NCBI GenBank assembly: GCA_009829735.1
Contig: CM020618.1
Location: 28,186,894 to 28,250,893 of the forward strand
Direction: 5' to 3'
Length of the DNA stretch: 64,000 bases
From: Pyropia yezoensis
Taxonomy: Eukaryota; Rhodophyta; Bangiophyceae; Bangiales; Bangiaceae
Shown: piece by piece, positions 12,167 to 55,054 of the stretch
Position numbering within the stretch: position 1 is the stretch's first letter
Layout of the letters: every line of letters starts with the position of its first letter
Program-made: the position numbers and the translations under genes
Notes under the pieces: model-generated
The model's input: only the letters and a program-made list of their open reading frames with translations
The model's database searches: none
Told to the model about the DNA's origin: nothing

Positions 12167-12494
12167 TGTGGATTATTTGTTACCCAATAAAAGGATATGG
12201 GACCGACCGGCGCCCGGAAGGCAAAGAGGGAGCTATTACCGTAAAGGCAAAGAAGACACACCTTTAGCTCCAGGACGTTCGATGGGGAGCAAGCCGGCCA
12301 AACGGCAGCGGCGAGCCCCCACGTCGCCTCGCTCGATCCCTCCAAAGCAAGGACAGATAAACAATGCAAAACAAAAGTAGTCCCCCAAAGGGCGAGCCAC
12401 GAGCGGACCCAGACCAACAAGGCTGGGACCACCAGTCAAGGGGGCTACTTGACCGTAAATACCGGAAATCGGTACGGTGGGCGGATATACTACA
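12167..12494 (-). repeat. 3' LTR of element B
   Basis: Direct repeat of 21604-22011. In element direction it begins TGTAGTATATCCGCC and ends CCACA, with TG...CA ends. It is about 80 bp shorter than the other LTR. The outer flank is the GCCAG target-site repeat. Confidence 0.9.
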
Positions 12495-13061
12495 TACCCC
12501 CGTTGGCAGCTTCGAGCCGTCCCGGCGAGGTCCGGGTGGGTGCAACGTAAGGGCTTCGCGCGCCCAGTTGGGCGGGGTCGTGGCGCGGCCGCCTGCAATC
12601 TTGCGGGGGGTCGCGCCAGCACCGGTCGGTGTAGCTGTTGAAGCGTCGGTCCGCCGCGCGCGCGGCGTGGTACCCTCTCGGGTGTGCGGCGGGGCCGTGT
12701 GGCCGGGGCGGTTACGCGGGCTCGCGTGGGCCGACTCGTGGCTGGGCTACGCCAGCCGGTACTCGTGCCGCGGCCGGCCGGCCTCTGGCGCGTGGCGTCC
12801 GGGTGGGGGTCGGCGTTGTTGCCGTTGACCGTAGTGGTCGACGCGCGCGTCCGGGAAGGGGAGAGGGATTGCCGGCTAGCACTTGTGCTCCACCTTAGCC
12901 ACCTGGCGTCTCGGGCCGTTTGGCATCACGCTTGAGTTGAGTCGCCCGGTGGCCAGTTGGCCTTCCCGCGCGTCGGTCGACGCGCGATTTACCGGGCGAG
13001 TCATCCTCGGCCCGTCGGCCCGTTGCACGCGTTCGCCGGTTGGCACACTTGGCCTGTTGGC

Positions 13062-13206
13062 GGCCAAGGCGACAAGGGCGGCCAAGGCGACAAGGGCGGC
13101 CAAGGCGGCGCGGGTGGCCAAGGCGGCAAGGGCGGCCAAGGCGACAAGGGCGGCCAAGGCGGCGCGGGTGGCCAAGGCGGCGCGGGTTGCCAAGGCGGCC
13201 AGGGCG
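13062..13206 (+). repeat. 18-bp minisatellite, collagen-like if translated
   Basis: About eight units built on GGCCAAGGCGACAAGGGC, upstream of the antisense ORF of element B. In one plus-strand frame it reads as Gly-Gly-X triplets, in another as Lys-Ala-Thr/Arg-Ala repeats. It may belong to an upstream exon of the antisense gene or may be non-coding. Confidence 0.75.
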
Positions 13207-13240
13207 CGGCGCGGTGCCCATAAGGCTGAGCCGGTCTTAA

Positions 13241-15121
13241 GGTGGTGCCATTCTGGCCGACGAGGTGGCTCCCGCCGTGCCGGCGGCTACCCCGGAGGTG
13301 GACTGCTCGGAGGCCGAGCGGCCGGTGCGCGGGTTTTACCGTAGCCCGCAGGCGACCTACATGGTCGATGGTGTCGGCTTCGTGGCGGATGCGCCGTTGT
13401 TGGAGGCGGCGCGTTCCAACCGCTTGTTGGCGCTGCAGCGCATCCGTGACGCGCGGTGGGCAGCGTTGCCTAAGTTCCGGGACGTGTCCGTTGGCGGGGC
13501 GTTTCACGCAGGCGAGTCCGTCTCGGATGTGCACGGGGATGCCGACTTTGGCCGACAAGGCCCGGAGCGGCAGGCGTACGAGGTCTTGTCGTTGAGCAAC
13601 GAGTTGTTGCGGTACGCGTCCACCGGTGCTCTGCACGTGTATCACCGGCGCCTTTACGCCTGGGCACTGCGGTTCCGGGTTGGGAGCACCGAGACCTTCG
13701 TGGTCGCTGCCAATAACTTTGGGCGGCTGCGTCGCTTATGGACGTGTGCGGTGTTCCTTGCACGCGACTTGGCCGATCGGCTGGACGTCCCGATCGCCGA
13801 GGATCCTGGCATGGAGGGGTACTTGACCATGCTGGCCGACAAGGCGTACCCCGGCAACCCTCCGCCTGTCCTCGACTTTGGTCCGTCGTTGTGCGACCTC
13901 CCGCAGCCCTTCCGGGCGCCGACGACGTCCATTCGGTTCCGTCGGTCGAACGACCTCGCGTCGATTGAGCGTCGGGGCTTGCTGGCCCCTGCCTGGGCCT
14001 CGAGTCTGGTCCGTGCGCGACCGTTCCTCGACTTGAAGCGTTGCCTTCCGTGTCGCCTGTCCTGGTGGACCGAGTATGGTCCATACATGGAGACGCCGGT
14101 GGCGCTGTCTAACGTTGCCACTCGGCTGACGGAGGCGGATAGCGCGGCGTGGGGCATCGTTTTCGACGAGTTCTTCTGCTTCCTGCTTGCCGCGTGGGTA
14201 CACTGGTTGGTCCACGACGGACTGTTTTGCCGGTTGAGTGACCAAGTGGTCGGGTGGTTGGACGGCTTGAGCGTAAGCCACCTGGCTGACGGCCCCGGCG
14301 GTGACGAGCGTCTGTTGACGTACCAGCGTATGCGGGAGGCGCACTCCGTCTTTCCTTGGACCACCGTGGTCGCGGACGTTCGTCGTCGTGACTACCACAC
14401 GAAGGCCGCTCTTGAGGTGTATGTCAAGCTTGACCCGTCGGCCAAGTATGGCTTTGCTCTTCGACAGCCGTGCGGCTCGTTCGACTGGAAGTACGATGCC
14501 ACTTCGGCGGAGTCGCCCGGTGTGGGTTGGTCGGTCGACCGTGGAGGTCGTGATGCGGGTCGTCGAGTGCGTGATCGCACTCGTTCGCCTTCGCCGCAGG
14601 CGGTTGGTGGGTCACGTGGCCGTGCTGCTGAGCCGTCGACGTGCCGCGGTGGCGATGAGCCGATGTGGCCGTCCGACTGGGCTCGCGTGGGAACGGTTGC
14701 CCTGTTGAGCGCGAAGCACGTTGATGCCTTGGCTGGCCGTAGTGTGCCTCGCGGTGCGACGGCCGGTGCCTTGGCAGTTGCGTGGTCGTGCCAGACCGTC
14801 GAGATGGAGGACGTTATCCGTCGGGTTGGTGGTATGACCGAGTCTCAGGCGGTGGAGGAGCTTCTCCTGGCCATGTCCCGCATGGCGGACCCCTCTCGGA
14901 TTCGAGACAGCGTGCTCGCTGAGCTGCGTCACGCTCCCGTGGTGGAGGCGCGGGGTGAGAATTCTCGTCGCGTCGACGTCAATGCCATTCTTGGCCGGCG
15001 CCGGCGGCCCGTGTCGGACGACGAGGAGGAGCCGGCTACTCCGGCGCCGGTTTGCCACGTGCGTTCGCGCAGTCCGTCATACGACGAGGACGCGCGTGGT
15101 CGTTACCGTCGTGGTACTTGA
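13241..15121 (+). CDS. Antisense ORF of element B, unknown function
   Basis: A 1.9-kb open frame on the strand opposite gag-pol, lying between the end of pol (15168) and the 3' LTR and ending tail-to-tail with pol 46 bp away. The frame opens at 13241. The first in-frame ATG is at 13361, but coding-like sequence (RPVRGFYRSPQAT) precedes it, so an upstream exon is possible. I do not recognise the protein. It has a roughly 400-residue globular body with aromatic-rich stretches (FFCFLLAAWVHWLVHDG), a hydrophilic Arg/Asp linker, a helical segment (GTVALLSAKHVDALAG ... AVEELLLAMSRM) and an acidic then Arg/Ser tail ending RSRSPSYDEDARGRYRRGT. The tail suggests nuclear or RNA binding. Compare 24128-25552 (C) and 52269-54248 (D). 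Antisense frames in this position are known in some plant Ty3 elements. Confidence 0.7.
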   Translation, partial: GGAILADEVAPAVPAATPEVDCSEAERPVRGFYRSPQATYMVDGVGFVADAPLLEAARSNRLLALQRIRDARWAALPKFRDVSVGGAFHAGESVSDVHGDADFGRQGPERQAYEVLSLSNELLRYASTGALHVYHRRLYAWALRFRVGSTETFVVAANNFGRLRRLWTCAVFLARDLADRLDVPIAEDPGMEGYLTMLADKAYPGNPPPVLDFGPSLCDLPQPFRAPTTSIRFRRSNDLASIERRGLLAPAWASSLVRARPFLDLKRCLPCRLSWWTEYGPYMETPVALSNVATRLTEADSAAWGIVFDEFFCFLLAAWVHWLVHDGLFCRLSDQVVGWLDGLSVSHLADGPGGDERLLTYQRMREAHSVFPWTTVVADVRRRDYHTKAALEVYVKLDPSAKYGFALRQPCGSFDWKYDATSAESPGVGWSVDRGGRDAGRRVRDRTRSPSPQAVGGSRGRAAEPSTCRGGDEPMWPSDWARVGTVALLSAKHVDALAGRSVPRGATAGALAVAWSCQTVEMEDVIRRVGGMTESQAVEELLLAMSRMADPSRIRDSVLAELRHAPVVEARGENSRRVDVNAILGRRRRPVSDDEEEPATPAPVCHVRSRSPSYDEDARGRYRRGT

Positions 15122-15167
15122 GGGGTTGTTTGACGATGTGTCGAGTGTTGTGCCTATTGGCGTCTTG

Positions 15168-18100
15168 TCAGTCTAGCTTTGTCTTGCATTGCCGACTGGC
15201 GTGTTTGTTTCTTGTGCGTTTGCATTGAAAGTGGAAGGCAGTCTTTGCCCATTGTGTTGACACCGAGTCGTGGTGTGATGTCGGATTCAAGAGTATGTAC
15301 TCGCAGCAAAGCCGTTTGGCCTTTGTAAACCAGGCGGCGTTTTCCCAGCGGGGAGTGACCAAGAGTGTGTCCGTTGGATTAATTTGCAGGTCTGTGACCA
15401 CTTGGTCGAGGGTGTGTACTAGGGGTATTCTCAGGCGTGTGCCTTTTGAGTGAGGTTGCTCAGTGGTGGTGACGCCTGTACCTGCGTGGTATACCAAGGG
15501 ACGGTACCGCCGGGTGAGCTCCGGTAGCTCCCTGTGTTGGCCATGTATGGGGAAGGTAAAGTTACGACTTGCCGATGGCAATGTTGCCTTCATGTAGTAG
15601 ACAGGGATGCTCTCCGTAATGGAGCGGTCTGCGTTGTCCCATTGGACAATAGCCTGTATCACCCCCCATGGGTCGACGAAGACCGCCATGATGGTGGGGT
15701 CCCATGACTTAGTCGTCACAGTCTTGATGTCCGCAACACTTGTTGCGAAAGTTACTCGAGCCGATGTCTTTGTGGTTTTTCGCCACGTGTATCCTGTTAT
15801 TTCTACCTTTTTGGAACGCAGGTGTCTTATCACCAAGTTACGTGGCAAGTTCTCCACCGGTTCCCAGGTGTCATCCTTAGGGATATAATCATACCATCGG
15901 ACTTTGAATTCGTAAGAATCCCCGCACCGTCGATGGGACATGAGCTTGTCGATGACGTATTCGTCGTGGATGGTTGGCTCCGGCCGTGGTTTGTCAAACC
16001 CATCGAGAAGTGGATGTGGAGTGGACTCGTCACAGTCGTCCGGGCGCGGTGCCGCTGTGGCGTGGTCGCTGTTGATGCGCTTCTCGATGCCATCGACGTC
16101 GATGACGAACGTAGACTCGTCAGCGTCGACGACGATGAATGGCCCTACGGCCTTGCTCTGCAGCTTGTTGTCTCGTTGGTGGTTTGTCGTATAGACATAG
16201 TCGGCGATCTTAATCTTGCGACTGCGTTCCCTATTGTGGGCATCGAAGTTACGCTTGTAACGTTGCTGAGTTTTGGCGAGGGCCTCGACGACGGCCGGGA
16301 GCTGCAACCGCAGTCGGGCCATGGACTCGCGCTTCCTCGCGAGCGGCGAGCCGTCGTTGAGGGTTCCTCGTTGGGCTACCGACGTACCGGGTGGCAGGTT
16401 ACGGACCGATAGGTTCGGGATTCGTCGTGGAATGACAAGTTCGAAGGGTGCTAGTCCAGTGGACCGGTGTGGTTGGCTGTTGTAAGCCATCGTGAGGACG
16501 GGCAGCAGCTCGTCCCAGCGCTTGGGGTCCTCGGTCACGTAATGACGTAGTTGCGTCGCAATGGTACGATTGTACCGCTCGACTTGACCGTTGGTCTGAG
16601 GATGGTACGCGGTGGTGCGTACCGTCTCCACTCCGAGCACCGTCATCACGGCAATGAAAAAGTTCGACATGAACTGGGGTCCTTGGTCGGACAAGATCTT
16701 GTCCGGTGGGCCATAGCAGGCTATCCAATGTTCAATAACAGCGGAGGAGACGGAGATGGCCGTGATGGTCTTAAGTGCTATGCACTTAGTTAGCTTTGCA
16801 AAGCGGTCGGTAATGACCAAGATGAAGCGGTTGCCGCTTTTGCTTGCCGGCAAGGGACCGAGGATGTCAATTGACAATTCCGTCAGCAGTTCCGACGCAG
16901 GGAACAAGGTCAGCGGCGTCGTGTGCTTACGCAACACCAGGCGGTTCTGGGCACAAGTGGTGCAGTTGGTAATGGTGTTGTGGATATCCGATATCATGGA
17001 TGGCCAGAAGAACTTTGTTCGCATTGTGAAGTACATCTTGTTCATGCCCGGGTGGGCGGCCGTGGTGGCCATGTGTTGGAGCTTCAAGATGACATCTTGT
17101 TGCAACTTGGGGATGACCAGTTGGTCTCCATACGCAGTCTTGCGACGTATCGCGTTGTTCTCATCGAGGTAGAATGACTTGTGGCCTCCGTTTGCGACAC
17201 TGTCGATGATCGACTTGCAGAAATCATCCGATTGTTGTTTGTCAATGACTTCATAGAAGTCAAGGGGTTCGGGATCCGTTGTGCCCGTGTACCTGTCCGT
17301 TTGGACGCCGTGTGCTGTCTGGGCCACCGCTAGACATGGAATGTCATCGTTGACCGTGTCGCTCATCGCGTTGTTGTCCGCGCGAGAGAGGAAGTCTGGG
17401 AGGTGGTGACTGGCACCTGGCTTGTACTTTAGTTCGAAGTTGAACTCAGAGAGGCGCATACGCCATCTCATCAAGCGACCGCTGGAGTCAGCGGTGCTGT
17501 ATATCCAGCTCAAGCTTTGATGGTCCGATCGGATGATGAAGTGTTGTCCTCCGAGAAAGTGCCTCAACTTGAGGACGGCCCACACTATGCCAAGGCATTC
17601 TCTCTCCGTTGTGGAGTAGTTGAGCTCTGCCGCGTTGAGGGCGCTGCTCCAGTAGCCTAGTGGCTGTGCCTTGCCATCATCGTCCGCTTGGAGCAATGTG
17701 CAGCCGAGCTGGTAAGCACTTGCGTCGACGTCGAGCGTCAGCTCGCGACCTGCCTTAGGTAAGGCTAAGATTGGTGGGTGCACCAAGGCGTCGCGCAAGT
17801 CTTCAAAGGCTGCCGTCTTCCCTGTGGAGGGTGGTGGCAGGTCCGGTGGGACGTCCTTCTTTGTAAACGCGTTGAGCGTACTTGCCCTCTTGGTAAAGTC
17901 TACTACGAATCGTCGATAGACGTTGCACATGCCGAGAAAACTTTTGAGTTGAGTCTTGGTCTTGGGGAACGTCGCTTGACGAAGGGCGTCGGTGTTCTTG
18001 GTAAGAACGTGGAGCATACCAGGCGTTATGCTGTGGCCGAGGTACTCCACCTCGTTGGAAAACCACTTGCACTTCTCAAGATTGAGAGTCACGCCAGCCT

Positions 18101-19055
18101 CCCGTAGTCGGGTAAGGACCTTGTCCACATCATGGATGTGTTGTTTGGCGTTTGCCGAGAATATGATAACGTCGTCTAAATAGACGAGGCAGACCTGCCA
18201 CTTGAGTCCGGAGAGGATAATATCCAGGGCACGTTGGAACGTCGCCGGGGCATTGGTCAAGCCAAACGGCATAGTTGTCCAGTCGAAGATGCCATAGTGC
18301 GTGGTGATCGCCGTCTTTTCTTGGTCCTCTTGCCGCAATGGCACTTGCCAGTACCCAGCGGTACAGTCGAGAGATGTGAAGACCTTGGCGTCTCCAAGAA
18401 GGTCGGGGCAGTCCTCCATGCGCGGGAGGGGGTACGCGTCCTTGTTGGTGATGCTGTTGAGCCGTCGATAATCGACGCAGAATCGGGCCTTCCCATTTAT
18501 CTGGGGGATGATAACGACCGGACTGGCCCAGTCACTGTGACTTGGTTGAATAATCTTGAGCTTCAACATCTTGTTGATTTGATCGACAATGATCGCACGT
18601 TTGAACGCGCCGGTCCGGTAGGGCTGGGCCCTTATAGGGGCAACCCCAGGTGGAGTGACGATGGCGTGCTCTGTAGCGTGGATGACCCCGAGGGTCCCGT
18701 CCCACATCCTGCCATGCTTGGCCAACATCGACTTGATTTGCGCATGCAAATGTTGGGGTGCCCCGTCGAGTTTGATGTCATCAAGAGACGGTTTGGGTTG
18801 CTCGGTCTCCGGGTCGGATGACCCCTTATCCTCCGTCGGGGCGGCGAGGACTCGCCCAAGGTGGGGCTCGGCAAACGCGAGGACGCACCCCTTTCGCAGG
18901 ATGGCCGTGTCTGGCCCGAAGTGGCACACCTTAACCAGGAATGGTTCGTCAGGCTTGACGGTGGCCGGTCCGCGCGCGACTGCCATGGTCTTGTGTCGGC
19001 ACAATCGTGCGTTTGGTTGGAGAGTAACCAGTCCCGGAGTGTCACAAGTGACCAT
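15168..19055 (-). CDS. pol: Element B pol: RT, RNase H, integrase, chromodomain
   Basis: A long open pol frame of 1295 codons. Order: spacer, RT (with YPLPRM, GYWQVPL, MPFGLTNAPATFQRA and the YLDD box near 18180), RNase H (TLDVDAS, ERECLGIVWAV, IIRSDHQSL), integrase zinc finger (H-H-C-C around HPGMNK ... CTTCAQNR) and core (ELSIDILGPLP, ILSDQGPQF, TAYHPQTNGQVERYNRT), then a chromodomain near 15860-15990 (FKVRWYDY, DTWEPVENLP), and an unusual tail of about 150 residues past the chromodomain. The chromodomain is expected to steer integration to marked chromatin. This is a fossil-class element that appears largely intact here. The C-terminal extension is longer than in typical chromoviruses. Confidence 0.92.
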   Translation of the reverse strand: MVTCDTPGLVTLQPNARLCRHKTMAVARGPATVKPDEPFLVKVCHFGPDTAILRKGCVLAFAEPHLGRVLAAPTEDKGSSDPETEQPKPSLDDIKLDGAPQHLHAQIKSMLAKHGRMWDGTLGVIHATEHAIVTPPGVAPIRAQPYRTGAFKRAIIVDQINKMLKLKIIQPSHSDWASPVVIIPQINGKARFCVDYRRLNSITNKDAYPLPRMEDCPDLLGDAKVFTSLDCTAGYWQVPLRQEDQEKTAITTHYGIFDWTTMPFGLTNAPATFQRALDIILSGLKWQVCLVYLDDVIIFSANAKQHIHDVDKVLTRLREAGVTLNLEKCKWFSNEVEYLGHSITPGMLHVLTKNTDALRQATFPKTKTQLKSFLGMCNVYRRFVVDFTKRASTLNAFTKKDVPPDLPPPSTGKTAAFEDLRDALVHPPILALPKAGRELTLDVDASAYQLGCTLLQADDDGKAQPLGYWSSALNAAELNYSTTERECLGIVWAVLKLRHFLGGQHFIIRSDHQSLSWIYSTADSSGRLMRWRMRLSEFNFELKYKPGASHHLPDFLSRADNNAMSDTVNDDIPCLAVAQTAHGVQTDRYTGTTDPEPLDFYEVIDKQQSDDFCKSIIDSVANGGHKSFYLDENNAIRRKTAYGDQLVIPKLQQDVILKLQHMATTAAHPGMNKMYFTMRTKFFWPSMISDIHNTITNCTTCAQNRLVLRKHTTPLTLFPASELLTELSIDILGPLPASKSGNRFILVITDRFAKLTKCIALKTITAISVSSAVIEHWIACYGPPDKILSDQGPQFMSNFFIAVMTVLGVETVRTTAYHPQTNGQVERYNRTIATQLRHYVTEDPKRWDELLPVLTMAYNSQPHRSTGLAPFELVIPRRIPNLSVRNLPPGTSVAQRGTLNDGSPLARKRESMARLRLQLPAVVEALAKTQQRYKRNFDAHNRERSRKIKIADYVYTTNHQRDNKLQSKAVGPFIVVDADESTFVIDVDGIEKRINSDHATAAPRPDDCDESTPHPLLDGFDKPRPEPTIHDEYVIDKLMSHRRCGDSYEFKVRWYDYIPKDDTWEPVENLPRNLVIRHLRSKKVEITGYTWRKTTKTSARVTFATSVADIKTVTTKSWDPTIMAVFVDPWGVIQAIVQWDNADRSITESIPVYYMKATLPSASRNFTFPIHGQHRELPELTRRYRPLVYHAGTGVTTTEQPHSKGTRLRIPLVHTLDQVVTDLQINPTDTLLVTPRWENAAWFTKAKRLCCEYILLNPTSHHDSVSTQWAKTAFHFQCKRTRNKHASRQCKTKLD

Positions 19056-19239
19056 GATCTATTCCTCGGTTTTGCCCTTGAGGCGTGTTTGCTTACAAGC
19101 ACGGACCTTAGTCGACCCCCCGGTCCATTGAGGTTCCATAACATTGTTGTACTGGATGCCCAAGATGGAAGAGTGAGCCGTCGAACGATCGTTCGCGGAT
19201 TGCCAAACGATACGTTTGAGTCGGGGCCAGATGACTCCA

Positions 19240-19638: not shown

Positions 19639-21270
19639 TTACTCGTTTTTTGAGTCGGCCTTGCCGTCGCCGGTGTCGACGCGTCCGACGTCATCGTCCT
19701 CCGAGTCCGGCAGGACTTCATTCTCGACGATCGCGTTGATCTGCTTGCGGACCGAGTCGTCGATGAGTGCCATCACTCGTGCCTGACGTCGTTCACGACG
19801 GCTCTTAGGGCATTGAGGGGCAAAGTGCCCGCGCTCGTTACAGTTGTAACAGATGTCGTTAGCTCGCGGGTTTGGCGTGTCCGTGCGGACAGCCTTAACG
19901 GGGTCGAATGGTCGATCGACCGTGCGCGCTTGGGGCCCCGGGGTAGTGTTAACTTGACTAACCTTGATCATGGCAGGCCGGCTGGCCTTGATGGACTGCC
20001 GCAGGCGAGTGGCGCCCTCCCAAAATCCTTGGGCAGCTGCCACTGTGTCCGCCATTGGGCGATCGGGGAATTGACTGTCCAGGACGCGGACGTTTGGCTT
20101 CATGAGGTCTGAAAGACCGTTGATGAAGACGTCCTTTACGTCTTGAGCGGAGAACAGGCCGCAGAGGCGATCGCACGCCGCCTCCACGCGGGAGGCAAAC
20201 ACGCGCGGGACCTCCGCGTCCACTTGAGTCATCGTAATGATGTCGTGATAGGCTGTTGCCAGGCCGGCGTGAGTTGCGTACTTCTTGAGAAGCCAGTTGA
20301 CTCCTTCACCATAGGTGGTGAGCTCGTAGTGCTTGCCACTAACAATCGTGTTGGCCGCGCTGGCGAATGCGCGCTTGGCGGCTCCCGCCAGCTGGAAGGC
20401 GATCAAGAAGAACGCCCGGCCGTGGGTCAGCCCTGCCGCGTCGCAAGCTCTGCGAAAGGTGGTGAGGAAGGTGAAGACACCGAGGGGGTCGCCACCGTTA
20501 AAGGCCTCTTGACCTTGGAACGCGCCGTCAAGGCGCTTGTTCATCTTGCTCGCGTCCTTCACCATGGATGGTGTGTACTTGGTGCTCCATCGGAGCAGGA
20601 AGCAGGTCCGGTAATCCAGGAGTGACTTGAAGCGGCTGTTGCCGGGTCGAACGACCAACTGTCGGTCACCCAACTCCGTGAGAACAGCGGCGGGCGCCGG
20701 TCGGCGCCGGTGACGACGCGCACGTCGACGGTGTGCGTCCGAGCTGTTCGTAACGGACTCACTGCTCGATGAGCTTGGGCTTGACGGCGGGGAAGGGTCC
20801 CAACGACCGTCATCAGTTTCGTCCGAAGACGAGGAAGACGAGGACGACGAGTTGTCGGATGACATCCCGTCCTCAGCAGATGATGAGCCTCCCTCCCGTG
20901 CGTTCGAACGCTTAGTCGAGGCCTTGACCTTAAGGTCATCGACTTGGCGCTCCAACACGCGGATCCGACGGTTCTTCATCTGAAGATTGCCAATCGGCAG
21001 GCTGGCGTGGGACGCCCCTGGGGCAGGTCCCCGGGCCATCTTGCCCACCGACTGTCGGTTCGACGTCGTCCGTTGACGAAACGCCTCATTTGAGGTTGGC
21101 TTTCTCAGCTCCTCAAGAGTGGTCACCAGCTTGGTGTTGGACTTCTCCAACTCCTTGTTGGCGGCCTCTTGGGCCTCAAGACGGGCATGAAGTGCCTCCA
21201 CCACCGCCTTCAAGCTCTCCAACTTGAAGGTAGTGACATCCTCCGAGTCAGGGCTCGGGGGGGGTAGCAT
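19639..21270 (-). CDS. gag: Element B gag with zinc knuckle
   Basis: A 543-residue capsid/nucleocapsid protein. It starts at an ATG with a Ser/Pro/Asp-rich leader, then a coiled coil (about residues 15-60, LKAVVEALHARLEAQEA), a Ser/Asp/Glu stretch (about 125-165), the retrotransposon gag core (about 240-420) and one CCHC zinc knuckle (CYNCNERGHFAPQC, about residues 488-501). It ends acidic. It lies 330 bp downstream of the primer site, which fits a leader and packaging region. Confidence 0.88.
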   Translation of the reverse strand: MLPPPSPDSEDVTTFKLESLKAVVEALHARLEAQEAANKELEKSNTKLVTTLEELRKPTSNEAFRQRTTSNRQSVGKMARGPAPGASHASLPIGNLQMKNRRIRVLERQVDDLKVKASTKRSNAREGGSSSAEDGMSSDNSSSSSSSSSDETDDGRWDPSPPSSPSSSSSESVTNSSDAHRRRARRHRRRPAPAAVLTELGDRQLVVRPGNSRFKSLLDYRTCFLLRWSTKYTPSMVKDASKMNKRLDGAFQGQEAFNGGDPLGVFTFLTTFRRACDAAGLTHGRAFFLIAFQLAGAAKRAFASAANTIVSGKHYELTTYGEGVNWLLKKYATHAGLATAYHDIITMTQVDAEVPRVFASRVEAACDRLCGLFSAQDVKDVFINGLSDLMKPNVRVLDSQFPDRPMADTVAAAQGFWEGATRLRQSIKASRPAMIKVSQVNTTPGPQARTVDRPFDPVKAVRTDTPNPRANDICYNCNERGHFAPQCPKSRRERRQARVMALIDDSVRKQINAIVENEVLPDSEDDDVGRVDTGDGKADSKNE

Positions 21271-21584
21271 CGGGTGCCGGACGGCGGCTTGTTCCGCTCA
21301 CACCGCCGGGTGGCGTGTAACCCGAAGGCCGGGCAATCCCCTTACCCTTCGAGCGCCGAGCGCCATCAGGGGCTCCCGAAGCCATATCGCAACCCGACGT
21401 ACTCGCGTCGGCGCGCCCTGCGTCGCCGACCAAAAGGTCCTCGTGGCACGACGACCGGCGTCGTCCAGCCTTCACCGATCGGTGATGTCGCCCGGCAACA
21501 CCCAATCAAGCGATCGTCAACACAACTGCCACAAGGCACCAAGGAACACGTACGAGTGTACGGCAGCGCCGCACACGAGCAGTA

Positions 21585-21602: not shown

Positions 21603-21603
21603 A

Positions 21604-23180: not shown

Positions 23181-23542
23181 TGTAGCACAGTAGGTATCCG
23201 CTGCACGTCCACTCTCAGGGAACACTCACCAAGGGGGATCGGCACCAACGTCACCGGGAGGCCAAGGTTGCTGTCCTTGGAGCGCAAGCCACGGGACCAA
23301 GACGGGAGCCCAAATGGGAGGGGTTTGTTGTTCTACCATGGCCGGCGTTGGATTCGCCGCCAGCCTCCTCGTCATAAACCCTCGGAGACTCTACTAACTA
23401 CCCTCCACCCCAAGATGCAAGTCCCTCTGGCCATACGTAAATTATAGACACCGTGACTAATACGGACTCCCAAATTGAAAGGTAAGGGTTAGAAGTAGCT
23501 CCCCTGTATTAGGGTCGCAATACGGTCATACATATTCCTACA
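23181..23542 (-). repeat. 3' LTR of element C
   Basis: A 362-bp LTR with TGTAG...CTACA ends, a direct repeat of about 32773-33119 and related to the solo LTR at 33966-34328. The outer flank is GGTGT. Confidence 0.88.
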
Positions 23543-24127: not shown

Positions 24128-25552
24128 ATGTCGGACCCCCAGGTGCCCGGGGGCGAGGACAACCTCCTGCTTGAGGAGGAGAAGGTGATGCAGGACGACG
24201 TTCCCGTCTCCGCCACCGCTGCCGAGTGCTTCCTGGCAAGCTTGTCGGACGATGACGATCGGGTGACCGTCCGTGTGGCTGCGGCGGGCGCGCCGGGTGG
24301 GTTGTCGTCCGATTGCAGCAGCGCGACGGCTCCGTCGGGGGGCGGTCAACCGCGTGTGGCGGCCTCTTTCGTTACTCCTCCGGCGGCCCGGATGGCTCCT
24401 GTCGCCGGTGCCGGCGTGGCCCTTCCTCAAGAAGGTGCAGCCGGTGCTTCTGACAGTCGTGGCGGCACACCGGCCGGGACGGCGGGTCAAGACGGCGCGG
24501 GTTCCTGCCCGGTTGGTGGTCCGTCCGCGGGCGTGGTTAACGGGCCTGCCCCCTCCGTCCCCGTTGTGCCTTCGTCGGGCCCGGGTGGCGACGGCGCTCT
24601 TCCCGCGGTGCCGCGGGCGACAGGTGGTCAGGATGTGTCTTCTCCGATGGCGGTGGACTCCGGAAGCTACTCCGGGCGGGCGCCCGCCCTTCTTCTTCCT
24701 CCTCGCCCCCGTGCGCCTTCGGCGCCGGCCCATCAGCCGGTGGGGCTTCCCCCGGCGCCGCCGATTCTTCCTGAGCCCGCCCGGAATGCCTCGCTGGGTG
24801 GCGGCGTCGCATTGGCGGCGGGCCACCCCCCTCTGACAGTGACCGACTTGGTGGCTCGGGTTCGAGGCCTCACCGTACAAGATTCCATGGACTCCGCTTG
24901 GCGGATGCGGGTGGACTTATACCCACCGAGCCACCGTGAAGGGTCCTCGCGGCGTATCAAGTTGGACCCGAGTTGGGAGCGGGAGTTGGCGCGGCTGGTC
25001 TACCAGCCCAATGCGGTCCGGGTGGAGCATCATTGGATCCTGAGTCAGCCGGACGACCGGCATGCGCAGCTCTGGCGCACCCGGGTCGGGCGCGGTGAAG
25101 TCTTTCTCATCCCCGCCTTCGGGATATGCGACTTGGTTGCCCCCGCGTCGCCGCGGGAGGTTGACTACCCGGCTAGTGCTCGGGCGGTTACGGCTGCTGT
25201 GGCCCCTCTTGCGTTCGGGCAGACGGTGGCCGATACCGGCCGGTATCCCGGGTTTGAGTACTTCCTGGGTGTATCCCCGTATCTGACGTTGACGGCTCCG
25301 TACCCGCCCATGGCGGGGCTGAAGTCGGCGTCGAGCTGGCGACGGAACCATGGTGTCATGGCGGATGCGTTCCGCACCGATATATCGTGCGCGTTGCAGA
25401 CCGGTAACGGTCGCGCGCCGGTGTACACTCCAGTGCGCCCGCCTCTGTGGCAGGAGGGGTGGGAGCCCGCCCCGGATCTCCGGTTTGACACCGGCTCCTG
25501 TCTCCGATACTTCGGTAGGGTGTTGGCATCCCGGAGGGTCCACCCGTTGTAG
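24128..25552 (+). CDS. Antisense ORF of element C, unknown function (broken copy)
   Basis: Open frame opposite gag-pol, between pol and the 3' LTR. The ATG at 24128 has a CCACCATGT context. The N-terminal 60 residues are acidic (LLLEEEKV, SLSDDDDRV). A long Ala/Pro/Gly/Ser-rich region follows to about residue 240, then a folded-looking part (LTVTDLVARVRGLTVQDS, RVEHHWILSQPDDRHAQLWR, GYPGFEYFLG-type aromatic stretch). I do not recognise the protein. Coding-like sequence continues beyond this frame to about 26005, so the copy is judged broken. Position and orientation match the antisense ORFs of B and D; sequence similarity to them is not obvious by eye. Confidence 0.6.
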   Translation: MSDPQVPGGEDNLLLEEEKVMQDDVPVSATAAECFLASLSDDDDRVTVRVAAAGAPGGLSSDCSSATAPSGGGQPRVAASFVTPPAARMAPVAGAGVALPQEGAAGASDSRGGTPAGTAGQDGAGSCPVGGPSAGVVNGPAPSVPVVPSSGPGGDGALPAVPRATGGQDVSSPMAVDSGSYSGRAPALLLPPRPRAPSAPAHQPVGLPPAPPILPEPARNASLGGGVALAAGHPPLTVTDLVARVRGLTVQDSMDSAWRMRVDLYPPSHREGSSRRIKLDPSWERELARLVYQPNAVRVEHHWILSQPDDRHAQLWRTRVGRGEVFLIPAFGICDLVAPASPREVDYPASARAVTAAVAPLAFGQTVADTGRYPGFEYFLGVSPYLTLTAPYPPMAGLKSASSWRRNHGVMADAFRTDISCALQTGNGRAPVYTPVRPPLWQEGWEPAPDLRFDTGSCLRYFGRVLASRRVHPL

Positions 25553-29030: not shown

Positions 29031-29649
29031 CGAAGATCTCTCGTTTCATAGGTCCCGCGCGATGCGGTCGCGACTGCGCTGGTCGTGCACCTGTTACCAG
29101 GTCTATACGGCGTTGGGCTGCCCCAATGGTACCCAGAGCCCCGCCGGTCAACATGAAGTCATGCTTTCTTTGCATTCGTCGTACCTCTTCGGCTACCGAA
29201 GGGGGAAAGTGGTCGAGGTCAGCCTCGGCCAGTGCCTTCAAGGCTTCTTGGTCCCTTGGCTAAATGTCCGCCGGAGCTGTTGATTGGTTAGGTTTCCCGG
29301 CGTCGGGTTCCTTCAGCTCGGTGGTCTCGGTTACCGCCAGTACCTCAAGTGGATCCACTTGACCTTCCTTGTCAGAGGTTAGGATATCTCCTTCGTAGAG
29401 CTCAGCAATCCCGAGGATAGTTCCCTTTGGGAGGGTGACTGCCTTACGCCGATAGTTCGCCATCACGAGCAGTGATGACCCCCCCGCTGGGAGGTCCACG
29501 ATACCGTTGGCCATGGTCAACCCATGGCGCTAGTAGGTTCGAAGGTTTGACTGGACTCTCCAGATGCCTGCGAGGTCACAGTTAACCGGGAGGACTGTCT
29601 CCGATAACGGCTCAAAGCGAGTCCGCTTGGCCAGCCGGAGTGTCTTCGG

Positions 29650-32246: not shown

Positions 32247-32754
32247 TGCGTCCTCCGTACGCTCCTGACGGGCGTCGAGTCCGGTGACCGGGCCTTGATG
32301 CGCGCCAATAATGCCATCAGGGAGTCCCCTGGTGAAGGTGGCGGCGGAGTGAGGTCAGCAGAGGACGGTTGAGGCGGTCCGCCGCCCCCGGCCGTCCGTG
32401 CCGTACCAAACGTCAATCCGGCACCGGAGTGCATCGGCGTCTCAATGTTGTCGATCGGGTTACCGATCCCGGTTCCCGGGTTCAGCTCCGGGGTCGGCGT
32501 CGACGCCGATCCGTCATCTTGAACGTTTCCCGTCTCTTGAGTGGACATAGTCACAATTAGTCAACTGACGTAACAGTCACCACGATTAAGAGAGCAAGGG
32601 TGTAGTTTGGGGAGAGTAACTGTTGATCGCAGTCAAACGCAACCACTCAACACAATAAACCAGATCGCACCACCATGAGTACAAGAAAAGGACCGGATCC
32701 TTATGCGTGTGACAAGGTCGAAGACGGCGTCACCACAAGGGTGACGGAAGCCCG

Positions 32755-48301: not shown

Positions 48302-48309
48302 GAAAGGTG

Positions 48310-51193
48310 CGTAAACCATGTCGGGTCATCGCGGTGCTGACGGGTGAGAACTTCCAGGTGGCTGGCCGGGTGCAACTAGCCCCCGGCCGTGCCTATTGTG
48401 CCCGTATCGTACTTGATTCTGGTTCAGGCGCCTCTTTGATACGCAAGTCGCTATTACCCAAGGAGGTGAAGCTCCAACGTTGGAGGTCCAAGGCCGACCC
48501 TATGATCGACACCAATGGTGAGATACTTCCCATTAATGGTGCCGTAACCCTACCAACTAGGTTGGGGTGCCCCGAGGTCAACGTGACCTATGGACTAGTC
48601 GAGAATATATCGGTACCCCTGCTTCTGGCTACCCCTTATGTTGTAACACAAGTGCCTTTGATTTGTGGCCCTGAGTATTGGGTCAAGTTGATGATTGGGG
48701 AGACCATCCCCATCCTTGGTAAGGGAAAGTCTGTGGCTCCTGTGAAAGTCTCACAGTTGAAGCCTGTTTGCTCTGTGATAGAAGGGTTTACTGCTACCCT
48801 GCGGTTAGCCCGTAAAGTCACGTTGCCCCCCAACTCGGTGGCGCACGTTGACGTTGTAACTGATTATTCGGGGAACGGGTTGGTGCACCCTCACCCCCGT
48901 CTTGCTCGCAAGCACCAAGTGCATGTTGCTCTTGGCACGATGGACTCCAAAGCCGGAGTCCCGTGGAGGATCCAGGTTATGAACCTGAGCTCGTCGCCCA
49001 AGTACTTCAAGTCGGGAGCCAAGTTCGGCTATATCGACCAACATGAGGGACCGGTAGTAGCGGTCACCCTCAATGCGGGCGCGAGTAGCGATTCGAAGTC
49101 CGGGAAGGAGAAACACCAAGCCAAGTCGGCCGCCTCTCCTCGGCCCCATGTGAACATGGAGAGTGTTCCACCCAGGTTGAGGGTTCAAGTTGAACGCCTC
49201 TTGGACCAATATCACAAGTTGTGGGATGGTTAATTGGGACTCATGAGAGCCACCCAACACCGGATCGAGTTGAAGCCTGGTGCACCCCCTATACGCCAAC
49301 AACGATATAGGGGAGCTCCCCGTTCAAGGGCCATTGTTAAGGAGCAAGTCGCTCGTATGGAGGCCCTCGATGTGATCGAGGCCAGCAACGCCGAGTTGGC
49401 GAGTCCGGTGGTTATTGTCCCCGAAGTTGATGGGACCCCACGGCTCTGCATCGACTACCGTAAGCTCAACGAGAGCACGGTGAAGGATAGTTATCCCCTA
49501 CCTAGGATGGACGACTTTCTGGACTCTCTGGGTGAGGCAAACGTGTTCTCCACCCTAGACTGTAACGCGGGGTACTGGCAAATTCCCATTGCCCCGGAAG
49601 ACAGGCATAAAACTACCTTTACCTGTCACTGTGGTACCTACCAGTGCAAGCGACTACCGTTTGGACTGTGCATCGCGCCGGCAACTTTCCAGCGCGCCAT
49701 GGACATGATTCTGGCCGGAGTACGGTGGCAGATCTGTCTTGTGTACCTAGACGATATCATTGTGTTCTCCCGAAGTCCGGAGGAGGACATTGGCCATCTT
49801 GGCCAGGTGTTCAAGCTGCTTGCTGACGCCGGTGTGTCACTGAAGGCGAGTAAGTGCCACCTCTTCACTCAGGAGGTGGAATACTTGGGACATGTTGTCC
49901 GTCCGGGGCGCCTCAGTGTCAGCGAGAATAACTTGAGGGCCATCCGTAAGGCTCAGTACCCCCGGATCCAGACCCAGATGAGGAGCTTCCTCGGGATTTG
50001 TAACGTATACCGATGTTTCACCAAGGGCTTCGCCAAGTTGGCGAAGCCATTGAAAGAGCTAGTTAGCTCAAGGCTACCGAGGCACCTGCCTCCCCCAAGT
50101 CGGGTGGAGCAGGAATCCTTTGAGACTCGTCGGGATCTACTGCTGAAGCCCCCTATGTTGGCTATTCCCAGGTTGGGAGGCCACAACATCTTAGACGTGG
50201 ATACTAACTACGACCAACATGGTTGTGTGTTGATTCAGCAGCAGCCGGTCAAGGAGTACTTGCCGGTAGGACACTTGAGCAAGGGGCTGAACTCGGCTGA
50301 GAAGAACTATGGAGTCACCGAGTTGGAAGGACTCGCAGTGGTGTGGGCGGTGACGTCACTTCGTCATTACCTAGAGGGTGAGAAGTTCCTCATCCGCTGT
50401 GACCAGCGCGCGTTGCAGTTCATCTTTAAGACGGATTGCACGAACACTCGTCTCAACAGGTGGAGGGTGCGACTAGCACCATTCAACTTTGATGTCGAGT
50501 ACCGTCGCGGCAGGCAACATGCCCTTGCCGACGGCCTTTCTCGGGTACCTACCGAGGGGCTGGACACTAACTCAGTCGATGAGGACATCCCCATCGTGGG
50601 GGTCTTCACGCGCTCGGGTCAGGCACCGGACCCCGAGGCGCCAGGGAACAAGAAGTACTTGCCCCTGTCGCTGGACGAGGTGGTGATGGCCCAAGCCGAG
50701 GACCCCTTCTGCAAGTCGCAGAGGGACACGCTGGATACGGTGGCGGAGACGCGGTTCTTTATCGGAGACGATGGCCTCCTCTTGAGGAGGGGGGTATTCC
50801 AGGGGACCGAACAACTTGTCGTCCCCGCATCTCTCAAGGACAGTATTCTTCAGAGGGAGCACAACGCTCCCACAGGTGGACACCTGGGGTCTAGTAAACT
50901 CTACCAGACCCTGAGGACCAGGTACTACTGGCCGTCCATGGTGGTGGACATCTATAGTTGGGTGGCTGCCTGCACAAGTTGTGCGCAGAACCGTCTGATG
51001 GAACGGCGGCCTACTACGGCTATGTTACTGTTCCCGGCCAAGGAGTCCTTTGCCGCGTTGGCAATGGACATCCTTGGGCCACTGCCAGTGACCCAGGATG
51101 GTAACCAGTACCTCCTGGTCATCTGCGATCGCTTCACGAAACTTACGCGAGCGATCCCACTGGCAGAGATCACGGCCATGTCGGTCGTGTCAG
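48310..51193. repeat. Right arm of the 2.9-kb inverted repeat
   Basis: Complement of 39389-42272 with about five differences over 2,884 bp. The arms are separated by 6,037 bp (42273-48309). Confidence 0.92.
48334..49233 (+). CDS. Element D right copy protease region
   Basis: Retropepsin-like, active site RIVLDSGSGASLIRKS. The stop is immediately before the RT frame at 49234. Sequence upstream of 48310 in this frame belongs to the copia remnant, not to D. Confidence 0.75.
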   Translation: MLTGENFQVAGRVQLAPGRAYCARIVLDSGSGASLIRKSLLPKEVKLQRWRSKADPMIDTNGEILPINGAVTLPTRLGCPEVNVTYGLVENISVPLLLATPYVVTQVPLICGPEYWVKLMIGETIPILGKGKSVAPVKVSQLKPVCSVIEGFTATLRLARKVTLPPNSVAHVDVVTDYSGNGLVHPHPRLARKHQVHVALGTMDSKAGVPWRIQVMNLSSSPKYFKSGAKFGYIDQHEGPVVAVTLNAGASSDSKSGKEKHQAKSAASPRPHVNMESVPPRLRVQVERLLDQYHKLWDG

Positions 51194-52157
51194 CCTTCCT
51201 AGATCACTGGGTTGCCGCGTATGGCATCCCGGACAGTACACTCTCGGACAATGGGCCCAATTTGCGTCTGTACTGTTCCAGGGAGTGCTGGATATGTTGG
51301 GGGTTAAGGCAAACTATGCCACCCCCTAACACCCACAAACTAATGGGCAGGTGGAGCGCTTCAACAAAACTATTGTTCGGCAGCTGCGCCACTATGTGAG
51401 TGAGCACGTGAAAACGTGGGACCAATACTTTTCTATTCTTACCAATGCCTACAATTCGCAGGTTCACTCATCTACCGGGGAAGTACCCCTCGCTTTTGTG
51501 ACCCCCCGTCGCGTGCGGTCTATTGCCGTGCGGCGGCCGCTCCCAACTAGGGAGGATGGTAGCAGTACGCCTACTCCTACTGAGAGTAAGGTGGAGTTCG
51601 CTGCTAGGCTTGAAAAACTCATCCCTGAAGTCAGGGCTGAGATGGACAAAGCACAAAAGCGCTACAAGCGTACCTTTGACAAAAAGGTGCGCAATGCTAA
51701 GCATGTCCCCGAGCAGGGTGACTGGGTACTGGTTCACTCACACACCCCAACTGGGGGTAAGCTGGTATTCCAGACGAAAAGGCCGTGCCAGGTCCTTCGT
51801 ACTGATGGGCGGCGCTTCACCATCGAAAGTGACGATGGAGTCCGCACAGTAAACGGACAACACGTGGTAAAGGTTGCACCACCGCCTGCAGGCGACCCAG
51901 CTTGGGCGCGTGCGTTAGGAGCGTGGCGCCTGCCCTCGCTGCCTGCGGCCAAACATGGCCCGCAGGACTACGTGTTCGATAAGTTCATCGACCACGGCTG
52001 GGAAGAGGACACTAACCGCCTCATGTTGAGGGTGCGTTGGTTCGGATACAAAGCCAAGGATGATACGTGGGAATATGTGGAGGACCTTCCCGCTGGGAAG
52101 GTCCGGGCATACTGTGCCCGGAATGATATAGACCCTGACAGCCCCCCCTCAACGTGA
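49234..52157 (+). pseudogene. pol: Element D right copy pol with chromodomain
   Basis: RT (YLDDIIVF near 49745), RNase H, integrase zinc finger and core (LAMDILGPLPVTQDGN, HWVAAYGIPDSTLSDNG), integrase C-terminal domain (GDWVLVHSHTPTGGKLVF, KVAPPPAGDPAWARALG) and a chromodomain at about 51960-52130 (DYVFDKFIDHGWEED, VRWFGYKAKDDTWEYVED). About one break is apparent. This is the more complete pol of family D in the window. Confidence 0.9.
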
Positions 52158-52268
52158 GGGAAGGCCGAGTAACAGTGCCTAAAGAGTGCTTCAAGTCGAA
52201 GTGGTACGCAGAGTGGCTTTTAACTACAGCCCTAACCCTCACACTCTCACAACAAAGGCAGCTGCCAA

Positions 52269-54248
52269 CTAGACATGCATGCTAGACTCTCCAACCCCAC
52301 GGCCCTTGCCCTCACGTGGAGGCGAGCGGCGAGACCCACGCCGATAACCTTCCCCACCCGTCGGCGGGGGCGGCAGCTTCAAGTCGGAACAGTCGCGCCC
52401 CTCACGGTGGCGCAAATGGCGACGACCGCGGCCACCCTTCTGCTTCGTCTTGCGCGCAAGTTGGCGACGCAGACGCCGGACCGGCTCCGACTCTGACGGC
52501 GTAGAGGACTCCGAGACGGAATAAGACAACTTGTCTTCCGACACGGAGGGAGAACGCCGCGAGCGTTGGCGACGACGGCGAGGAGGCGAGTATGCCCGGC
52601 TCGCCCAACGTTTGCCACGCCCAAGTGGGGCTGGCTGGGGCACAATAGTCCCTATGCGAGCCAACTCGGCCGTCATAAACTCCGCCACCGACTCGCAACT
52701 CGCGGTCGCCACCGCAGTACGAACGCGCTCCTCAAGTTGAGGAGTCTCGGAAACTTGAAGGGATGCGGTTGACGCGGCCAACCAGGAAATGGTGCGCACC
52801 AACGTGGTGATCATCGTGACCGGTAACACCAACTTAGGATATACCGTCAGGAGAGTGGCCCCCAAGTTGGGGGACACCGGGGTGGACGACTCAACGGCCA
52901 CGCTTACCCGGATGTCCCCGTGCGCCTGGTAGGGGACAGGAGGAAGCGGAGGGGCACGCCGAGGTGGCGGTGCCCGAGTGTAACTGCGACCCCTACTCGG
53001 GGCCCCCGCAGTAGGTTTAGTCATATGGTCATCGTGAGAGGGCACGGCCATCACTATGGCCTTGTCCGGGGGCGGCGCAGTGTGGCGATCCACCCCCGGG
53101 GCATACGGGTAGTCCCCGATGCCCAGCCCCTCTCGTAGTACCATACGGCCGTCGTGAAGATCACGAGCGACCCATACGACCTGGCGAAGTGCGCCATCGT
53201 CCTTCGGCCCGCGGGTGGGGCGGCGCAACTTGTGCTCGATGCTCTCCCACTCAATGAACTTGTGGAGGCGGAACATCTCCTCAAGTAGAGTGAGTTGTCC
53301 TGATGAGCACCCCTCAGCAACTCGGAACATCTCCTCAAGTAGAGTGAGTTGTCCTGATGAGCACCCCTCAGCAACTAACTGAGGGGTGAGCCGTTCCAAA
53401 CCTTGGATAAGCCGAAGGGGAAGATGCCAGAGCATCCCCCGCCGCTGGACACAAGACACCCAGGTCGACATCACCTCGAGGAGCCACTGGGTTGCCAGCA
53501 TGGCCCACACCAGGTGATCCGGGCTAGCCGTCAACATGACGGAGCCGAAGTGGTCGAGCAACCGTGGTAGCAACGCAGGGAACCCGTAGGGGACCTCAAC
53601 CTGAGGCCACCACTCGGGCTTCTTGGGGTAGCACTGCTCCTTACTAGCTGCGGACTGCTGCGGAAACTCAAGTTGAGCCGAGGTCACCAAGTAGGGACCT
53701 CGCCGGAAGTCCTTCTCCATCCGCACATCAAAGTGATGAGTGTGCGAATCGGCCTCGTGAAGGTACGGGGGGCGAGTTGCCACCGCGTCCCAAGTAGAGG
53801 TCGGCAAGTCGCCCGGACCCGGGATAGTTCCCCCGCGGTCCACCATGGCCTTGGCCCGCTGTACGTCTTCGACTTCCTCATCGTCCAGGAAGGCAAACTG
53901 GTCCGTCCTGAAGCCGGCAGGGAACCCGATCCTACGGGGATACTTCTCCCGTAGGCGGTCCCATACCCGACTCATCGCTGTGCCAAGTCGACCACAGCGA
54001 AGAACAGTCAACCCTTCCTCATACAGAGGCCAATCGGGGTAAAACCACCGCCCCAAGGCCTCACGTGGGAAGACGCGGCTTGCCTCCGGGGGAGATCCCG
54101 CCGCCAACCCAAAGCCGGGTGACGCGGGAGTCCCATCCCCCGGAGCAACCGCGGAGCCCCCGCCGGAAGTCCCGGCGGGCGCTACACCGTAGGAGGTGTC
54201 CTCCATACGTTCATCAAGAGAGTCCGTCTCCACCCCCGGGGTCACCAT
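52269..54248 (-). CDS. Antisense ORF of element D, unknown function
   Basis: Long minus-strand frame between the chromodomain (ends 52157) and the 3' LTR (54586), tail-to-tail with pol. I take the ATG at 54248 (GCCATGGTC); the frame is open up to 54419. The product is about 659 residues. An acidic start (METDSLDERMED-like) leads to a globular body with aromatic and Trp-rich segments (LGRWFYPDWPLYEEGLTVLR, HLVWAMLATQWLLEVMSTWV, RQVVWVARDLHDGRMVLREG). Then come a Pro/Arg linker, a hydrophobic-helical part (VYPKLVLPVTMITTLVRTIS, VAEFMTAELARIGTI) and a strongly basic Arg/Ser tail (SPPRRRRQRSRRSPS, RRLRRQLARKTKQKGGRGRR). The tail suggests nuclear or RNA binding. The plan parallels the antisense ORF of element B. 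One internal 54-bp duplication is present. Confidence 0.72.
   Translation of the reverse strand: MVTPGVETDSLDERMEDTSYGVAPAGTSGGGSAVAPGDGTPASPGFGLAAGSPPEASRVFPREALGRWFYPDWPLYEEGLTVLRCGRLGTAMSRVWDRLREKYPRRIGFPAGFRTDQFAFLDDEEVEDVQRAKAMVDRGGTIPGPGDLPTSTWDAVATRPPYLHEADSHTHHFDVRMEKDFRRGPYLVTSAQLEFPQQSAASKEQCYPKKPEWWPQVEVPYGFPALLPRLLDHFGSVMLTASPDHLVWAMLATQWLLEVMSTWVSCVQRRGMLWHLPLRLIQGLERLTPQLVAEGCSSGQLTLLEEMFRVAEGCSSGQLTLLEEMFRLHKFIEWESIEHKLRRPTRGPKDDGALRQVVWVARDLHDGRMVLREGLGIGDYPYAPGVDRHTAPPPDKAIVMAVPSHDDHMTKPTAGAPSRGRSYTRAPPPRRAPPLPPVPYQAHGDIRVSVAVESSTPVSPNLGATLLTVYPKLVLPVTMITTLVRTISWLAASTASLQVSETPQLEERVRTAVATASCESVAEFMTAELARIGTIVPQPAPLGRGKRWASRAYSPPRRRRQRSRRSPSVSEDKLSYSVSESSTPSESEPVRRLRRQLARKTKQKGGRGRRHLRHREGRDCSDLKLPPPPTGGEGYRRGSRRSPPREGKGRGVGESSMHV
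53271..53378 (-). repeat. 54-bp tandem duplication inside the antisense ORF of D
   Basis: GAACATCTCCTCAAGTAGAG recurs at 53271 and 53325. The duplication adds 18 residues (VAEGCSSGQLTLLEEMFR) in frame, with no difference seen between the copies. Confidence 0.9.
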
Positions 54249-54585
54249 GGCTCTCCCCAAGTTAGGGAGAAACGCCCTGGCTGCAGCGGCACGAGACCCG
54301 CCTCGAGTTGAGGGGGGCTCGGATCGTGGGTAGATGGGTGGCCTCCCCAGCGTGGGACGGCTTAGGGAAAGGTGAAGGGGATGTGTTGGTGGGGGCGAAG
54401 TGAGAACCGGAGAGAGCAAGCTGCCGAGTGGGCAAGCTTGAGGAGAGGGGCGGTCAACGTGACCGCCTCCACGTCCACGTTACGTACTCGAGGGGGGACA
54501 GCAAGTCGCGCCCCCAACGCCGGACGTGCGTTTACACGCCCCCTCGCAGGGCCGACCGGGTCGGTCGAAACTGAGGAGAGGGGAG

Positions 54586-55054
54586 TGTGGCAGTATTGAC
54601 CCCCAGGTAGGGGGGCAACACGTGCCATGCAAGGGGCGCCAGGCCACTAGCCTGACCCGTTCCTCCCCCTGCATTTGGGTCCATATTCCCTAAGTTTGGG
54701 ATAGTTAGCCTAGTAGTAAATCCAACTTGGATTTGAGGGTTTTCTGCATTTATCGTCTTGAATTGTCGTGTGGCCCGGTGGGCAGGTGCTGGGGTGGGAG
54801 ATTCTGAGTGGCGAGATTCTGAGGGGACCCTGGGGGGATAAGGGGAGGGACAGCGGGGCTTGGCCTTGCTTCCCTGTCCCGACGAAGAAACTGTTGGACC
54901 ACACACCATCTTCTTGTTTGTCAGTGGGGGGATTGCCCCAAAACAGGGATAGAGTGTGTGCGACTTGCACTTCTTCCGGTTCCCCCGACACGGGAGGCAG
55001 CCCTTGTACACCGCCCCAACTTGGGTGTCGCGTGTGCGAGAGGTTTTTGCCACA
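54586..55054 (+). repeat. 3' LTR of element D (right)
   Basis: 469 bp, TGTGG ... CCACA, matching 44469-44937 with about 12 differences. The outer flank is CCAAC. Confidence 0.9.

Follow-up and report, generated by a model that had tools for sequence, protein, structure and literature searches.

In a window of 64,000 nucleotides from the red alga Pyropia yezoensis (GenBank assembly GCA_009829735.1, contig CM020618.1, positions 28,186,894 to 28,250,893 of the forward strand), three different Ty3 elements, named B, C and D, each contain an open frame between pol and the 3' long terminal repeat (LTR), on the strand opposite to the adjoining pol. These antisense frames had been noted in a first-pass annotation of the window, and their positions were confirmed (Table 1). 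In B together with its close relative B2, in C and in D, they are real protein genes under purifying selection. We are almost certain that they represent an antisense accessory protein gene of Ty3/gypsy (chromovirus-like) elements in bangialean red algae. Taken as a whole, the observations are probably best explained by an old accessory gene which was passed down with pol and acts back on its own element family.

The host elements were characterized by means of their pol products. Pfam identified reverse transcriptase (RT), ribonuclease H (RNase H) and integrase of the Ty3 type in pol of B, C and D as well as of two further families, E and F, which are introduced below; the best PDB match of B pol is Ty3. 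The match of B pol to PF00665 scored 30.1 bits, which is under the cut-off of 32.6. For the chromodomain PF00385 (cut-off 25.1 bits), the scores were 33.2 for B, 22.0 for D, 19.3 for E and 17.0 for F; for C pol (locus L050), a chromodomain was not listed by Pfam at E 0.01, and a similar stretch was recognized by eye only. LTR pairs enclose B and C, and the D gene is part of a 5'-truncated element with a 3' LTR only.

According to the annotation, each element keeps an open frame of 1.4-2.0 kb which ends tail-to-tail with pol. This description fits B and D, where the stops are separated by 46 and 111 bp, and all three frames are open; for C it has to be modified. The C open frame of the window spans 23960-25552 (+) with an ATG at 24128, but it ends early: similarity continues past the stop at 25552 to about 26484, and three full-length copies elsewhere encode 787-789 amino acids from the ATG within open frames of 823-864 amino acids. 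Moreover, C does not nearly abut pol: in L046/L050, the single arrangement for which the distance was determined, the two are 478 bp apart. The D open frame spans 52269-54479 (-) with an ATG at 54248; an in-frame duplication of 54 nt is private to the window copy among four aligned rows. In the window copy of B, the N-terminal MAD- has become LAD-, whereas the start methionine is kept in L003, L004, L039 and L040.

The substitution pattern argues for a protein product. A codon-level test across genomic copies, which the annotation had recommended, was performed for B/B2, C and D, and the ratio of nonsynonymous (dN) to synonymous (dS) substitution rates between diverged copies was 0.15-0.32. 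For B versus the B2 copies L039, L040 and L041, dN was 0.20-0.21 and dS 0.90-1.05, giving ratios of 0.20-0.23; L039 and L040 gave 0.146 when compared with each other. Pairwise values for the three full-length C copies were 0.24-0.32; the Pro/Ala-rich N-terminus had the highest ratios (0.36-0.59), and the core and the C-terminal parts had lower ones. Six D pairs gave 0.18-0.30, and the mean over 20 D sequences was 0.164. Mean values were 0.46 for ten C sequences, decayed ones included, and 0.74 for eight close B sequences. In the other five reading frames, the ratios of three pairs ranged from 0.29 to 2.9, and the low values belonged to the opposite-strand frame with common third positions. The excess of third-position differences is highly significant for B versus L039 (binomial p 3e-26), for two C pairs (2.6e-8 and 8.5e-14) and for two D pairs (2.5e-8 and 4.5e-10). 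As a control, dN/dS was determined for pol: it was 0.173 for B versus L039, 0.319 for the C-terminal part of D (window versus L012) and 0.106-0.332 for three C pairs. The antisense values are close to these controls, which indicates that constraint on the antisense gene is about as strong as that on pol.

Two further details emerged from these alignments. Along B versus L039 (L039 4115-8815 against window 15168-19058), dS amounts to 0.24-0.48 in most of pol, reaches 0.67 and 0.84 at the pol end and is also high (0.90) for the antisense gene; this hints that B-type elements may have exchanged their 3' part by past recombination. In D, only 3 of the 111 positions between the two stops (52158-52268) differ from L012, although dS of the antisense gene is approximately 0.15. 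The gap is conserved beyond synonymous sites, and an RNA-end signal or another cis signal is a possible reason.

Searches seeded with the antisense products found copies across the genome (107.5 Mb in 11 contigs, of which C1, C2 and C3 comprise 43.6, 34.3 and 29.4 Mb) and homologues in Pyropia vietnamensis, and they led on to the Ty3 families E and F. The following counts refer to the best candidates among the matches listed, and the copies are related to one another. B has at least 72 matches; among those listed, 36 cover at least 590 of the 626 residues, and 22 of these 36 are free of internal stops. Internal stops are likewise lacking in 58 of the 67 D matches listed, in 51 of the 90 C matches over the 474-residue query, and in 59 of the 64 F matches over approximately residues 28-393 of the query P0015. 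The pol end adjoins the frame on the opposite strand at seven of eight B loci and at all 20 D loci, and the same arrangement occurs in L039, E, F and C (L046/L050). For C, it is documented by the window and by L046/L050; probes made from B and D pol detected no pol end at the ten C loci L029-L038.

The protein database contains B and C homologues from P. vietnamensis, which also belongs to the Bangiales. Family E, a distant relative of B at C2:13761500-13769300, was reached by way of the P. vietnamensis protein P0002. The pol of E possesses RT, integrase and a weak chromodomain; an open antisense frame lies on the opposite strand, 155 bp from the pol end. Protein P0015 led to family F, of which two copies were inspected. 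In one of them (L051), the pol frame is open over 1169 codons and reaches the edge of the stretch, and the antisense gene lies opposite across 128 bp. Two loci deviate in their organization. The eighth B locus (L008) has no detectable pol end and carries, about 1 kb away, a partial C-type antisense frame on the same strand, which suggests nested or recombined elements. At C3:4072926-4100653, four B2-type antisense frames form one array (G000), three of them 7.8 kb apart, which suggests tandem elements.

The relationship between the antisense products was assessed by means of sequence and profile comparisons. BLASTP aligned B and D over 113 residues (2e-5). The window C product had no BLASTP match to B or D, because this copy ends inside the region in common; when full-length C copies and profiles were used, D matched C with E 3.7e-5. 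Profiles for B, D+F and C were then enriched with homologues from the protein database and with family F. B versus D+F gave E 1.8e-6 (159 columns, score 59.7, maximum of 40 shuffles 24.0), and D+F versus C gave E 6.7e-8 (229 columns, score 69.3, maximum of 39 shuffles 23.0); E matched the B profile with E 4e-18. Reversed profiles of B, D and C without F did not score above 16.8, and the three profiles did not score above 23.9 in 21 comparisons with gag and pol proteins. Merged profiles lacking F gave weaker matches (B versus D+C 7e-5, B+D versus C 0.002). On the basis of these profiles, the products of B, C, D, E and F are assigned to one superfamily with a common core region. The common plan that the annotation had proposed for B and D holds for the core domain; the basic Arg/Ser tail, which was part of this plan, is no feature of the superfamily. 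By eye, a C-terminal helical domain seemed likely to be common to all families; in the shuffle test, only B-E exceeded the shuffles (32.1 versus 22.3), and five other pairs did not.

In agreement with the annotation, B, C and D differ strongly, their pol sequences being 44% identical pairwise over 591 complete columns. Based on these columns, pol of B and B2 is 94% identical, and all other pairs of lineages have 44-62% identity. The antisense proteins are 14-33% identical, and 74% for B/B2 (372 columns). FastTree calculations for the antisense gene and for pol, each with six tips, resulted in one unrooted topology, (E,(B,B2),(C,(D,F))), with support values of 0.97-1.0. Note that the two tips of a lineage do not always stem from one copy: for C, pol was taken from the window and the antisense gene from L044; for D, pol was taken from the window and the antisense gene from L011. 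For these six tips only, the simplest reading is that the antisense gene was inherited together with pol, and at least six lineages (B, B2, C, D, E and F) would have received it in this way. An accessory gene common to several Ty3 lineages of one GC-rich genome, as anticipated in the annotation, is supported by both the common profile and the selection on the protein. The annotation had also named outcomes that would speak against such a gene, namely a frame missing from or neutral in other family members and the lack of a common profile; neither came true.

The antisense products comprise 580-800 amino acids. Judged from a middling model of the B core piece (mean predicted local distance difference test, pLDDT, of 57), the core is helix-rich. 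Reading of the products revealed an Arg/Ser-rich basic tail in B, D and E. The three products of the window have no Pfam family at E 0.1.

Several observations weigh against an old gene with a regulatory product that is common to all these elements. A chromodomain above the Pfam cut-off is found in B alone. Recent B copies are near neutral, with ratios of 0.56-1.01 for six pairs and of 0.54 for L040 versus L041; this is as expected for dead insertions and does not by itself support the explanation. Between the two F copies there are eight differing sites, too few for an estimate of selection. The direct profile comparison of B and C gave E 0.21, which is within the range of the shuffles; consequently, the kinship of B and C rests on D. 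The probabilities of the profile matches are 90-95% and thus below 99%. C and F lack the Arg/Ser tail, which more than any other feature points to a protein that enters the nucleus or binds nucleic acids. Finally, a Pfam search to E 10 gave nothing for seven of eight products and two weak rows for P0002 (E 0.17 and 0.38), and the predicted models, which are poor (mean pLDDT 38 and 57), gave no fold match.

Alternative explanations were compared with these data. The window contains 34 mechanical frames of at least 250 amino acids between 8000 and 60000, and long opposite frames also run across C. Nevertheless, it is hardly conceivable that the antisense frames are chance or mirror-image frames of a GC-rich genome without a product: the excess of third-position differences and the lowest dN/dS, well below 1, are found in precisely the frame in question, and this frame-specific substitution pattern refutes the idea. 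In addition, homologues at 38-56% identity come from other sources, and the core region is common to lineages whose pol is 44% identical. We also regard it as improbable that a host gene or a foreign element was captured separately by each family. LTR elements can acquire accessory genes by capture, and Pfam and fold comparisons revealed no known origin; however, separate events would have to account for one superfamily at the same place in six lineages with a pol-like tree. No single-copy host relative was recognized among the matches listed, most places of which were not inspected singly.

Two further alternatives accept the gene and concern its product. Antisense RNA is known to limit sense RNA in the copy-number control of Ty1, and an RNA with such a function, instead of a protein, would agree with the antisense position in all families seen and with the unusual conservation of the D gap (3/111 differences versus dS 0.15). 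As selection acts plainly on codons, we consider this explanation improbable as well, although RNA and protein roles may coexist. More weight is due to the proposal that the protein is a structural or replication accessory, e.g. a particle or envelope-like component, and no regulator: the core seems helix-rich in the middling model, 580-800 amino acids are large for a regulator, and selection is similar to that on pol. Opposed to this are the antisense coding, which separates the gene from gag-pol expression while env-like genes are in sense orientation, and the lack of a match to capsid or envelope families in Pfam. We judge this proposal to be unlikely, with perhaps a minor share of the probability.

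For the preferred explanation, an accessory gene inherited with pol and acting on its own family, the following mechanism is conceivable. A promoter close to the 3' LTR would drive transcription of the antisense gene, and its product would be translated separately. The protein may then act on the family that encodes it, either by activating these elements or counteracting their silencing or by regulating sense expression, as has been proposed for TRP28 of Retand elements and is known for HBZ of human T-cell leukaemia virus 1 (HTLV-1). Family-specific regulation is preferred over a general host function, because selection on the protein amid the multiplication of copies needs a benefit mainly to the encoding copies or to their family. 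Such a family-specific regulator has about an even chance of being the correct assignment. The idea of a nuclear factor, put forward in the annotation, rests on analogy, as the Arg/Ser tail is absent from C and F and there is no fold match.

Rather tentatively, and on the basis of a narrow literature search, a more far-reaching statement may be ventured: the products could form an undescribed superfamily, encoded by a standing gene of red-algal chromovirus-like Ty3 elements since before the split of the lineages, and this family-specific activator or anti-silencing factor could be an independent counterpart of TRP28 and HBZ. If true, antisense regulators next to the 3' LTR have arisen repeatedly in LTR retroelements. 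In a very distant host, the same slot as that of the known antisense genes is occupied by a protein family for which no link to them was detected, with many copies and under clear selection. This suggests that LTR elements recurrently bear an antisense slot between pol and the 3' LTR. The alga, whose genome is small and has many open copies, offers a testable case of the role of antisense genes. Moreover, there is a warning for annotation: in database records of P. vietnamensis, genes related to these retroelement genes are entered as hypothetical proteins.

The remaining observations concern the elements and their surroundings. Based on the window copy and a stretch beside L044, C was considered as a non-autonomous family lacking integrase; this was ruled out, since the integrase core is complete in L050. 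Beyond the weak chromodomain, residues 950-1019 of family E pol (L047 3-3299) match Dam (PF05869, E 8.3e-7, 29.3 bits, cut-off 28.1), a model of DNA N6-adenine methyltransferases; the C-terminal extension of B pol looks similar to that of E and has no match to this enzyme in Pfam. Two inverted copies of D-type pol (39386-42272 and 48310-51196) are 100% complementary over 2887 nt, and their LTR copies are 97.4% identical, which suggests a recent conversion or duplication. Between the two D copies, a frame at 46333-48375 (-) with a reverse transcriptase of the Ty1/copia type (RVT_2, PF07727, E 4.7e-14) overlaps the start of the second one. At 33966-34328, immediately beyond the C element, the C LTR occurs for a third time, in inverted orientation and with 91% identity to the 3' LTR. 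An open frame of 995 codons at 7279-10266 contains ten repeats of 126 bp (42 codons), and 344-bp tandem repeats occupy 10593-12058, just before the B 3' LTR.

Table 1. Coordinates of the antisense genes and of their host elements in the window.
Feature	Position	Strand	Remarks
B antisense gene	13241..15121	+	626-codon open frame; start methionine of related copies lost here
B core piece, conserved WW/helical region common to D, F, E	13958..14560	+	hhalign; model mean pLDDT 57
C antisense gene	24128..25552	+	window copy cut short by stop; further matching stretch ~26122-26484
D antisense gene	52269..54248	-	659 codons from ATG; 18-codon tandem duplication
Gap between stops of B antisense gene and pol	15122..15167	.	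46 bp
Gap between stops of D pol and antisense gene	52158..52268	.	111 bp
GGCGGCCAAGGC 18/54-bp tandem repeats, B 3' LTR to antisense gene	13059..13206	.	TRF
B 3' LTR	12163..12494	-	partner 21600-22011 with indel; direct repeat 97-98% identical
B pol: RT, RNase H, integrase, chromodomain	15168..19058	-	Pfam PF00078, PF17917, PF17921, PF00665, PF00385
B gag with CCHC zinc knuckle	19639..21297	-	PF00098
C 3' LTR	23196..23542	-	partner 32773-33119, 92.5%
C pol, RT to integrase core	26958..29045	-	frame ends inside integrase in window copy; core complete in L050
C gag-like frame	30978..32354	-	named by position; without Pfam match
D pol, RT to integrase	49234..51399	+	Pfam
D pol, integrase C-terminal part, shifted frame	51330..52157	+	sub-cut-off PF00385, 22.0 bits (cut-off 25.1)
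D 3' LTR	54586..55054	+	97.4% to inverted copy at 44469-44937

Among known systems, HBZ of HTLV-1 and APH-2 of HTLV-2 resemble the red-algal gene in that they, too, are antisense protein genes located 3' in LTR retroelements. HBZ, a bZIP protein, is small and spliced; in contrast, the red-algal products comprise 580-800 amino acids, their genes do not overlap pol, and no bZIP was found among eight antisense products (Pfam, E 10). HBZ and the red-algal gene have only the antisense position in common. The VANC-type proteins of plant VANDAL transposons have an anti-silencing function; VANDAL is a DNA transposon, and its VANC-type proteins provide a possible working analogy, that of an accessory protein favouring its own family.

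Closer in position are Retand, Grande and RIRE2, the Ty3 elements of flowering plants to which the annotation had pointed. The antisense gene of Grande is reportedly transcribed from its own promoter. According to a study on Retand (PMC11963269), antisense accessory genes have been described for a few retroviruses and for one Ty3 lineage of flowering plants. There, 97% of the Retand clusters carry antisense TRP28 between pol and the 3' LTR, the antisense open reading frames (ORFs) occur in recently active elements, and their function is given as unknown, DNA-binding being proposed; the product of Grande is described as nuclear, and some Retand elements have tandem repeats in the region between pol and the 3' LTR (PMC11963269). 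Env-like third ORFs of Ty3 elements are also located between pol and the 3' LTR, but in sense orientation, unlike the red-algal gene (PMC11963269). Retand elements belong to a lineage of flowering-plant Ty3 elements outside the chromoviruses, and their protein contains PF04195 (PMC11963269), whereas the host studied here is a red alga, B pol has a clear chromodomain, and the chromodomains of D, E and F are below the cut-off. PF04195 (Transposase_28) had no match in the eight products nor in the whole genome (to E 10, at the sensitivity of HMMER). Hence, the analogy drawn in the annotation holds for the position, and a kinship with TRP28 via PF04195 was not found. By the tests applied, the red-algal gene is no member of the Retand group; nonetheless, it sits like the Retand gene, between pol and the 3' LTR in antisense orientation, and may work like it.

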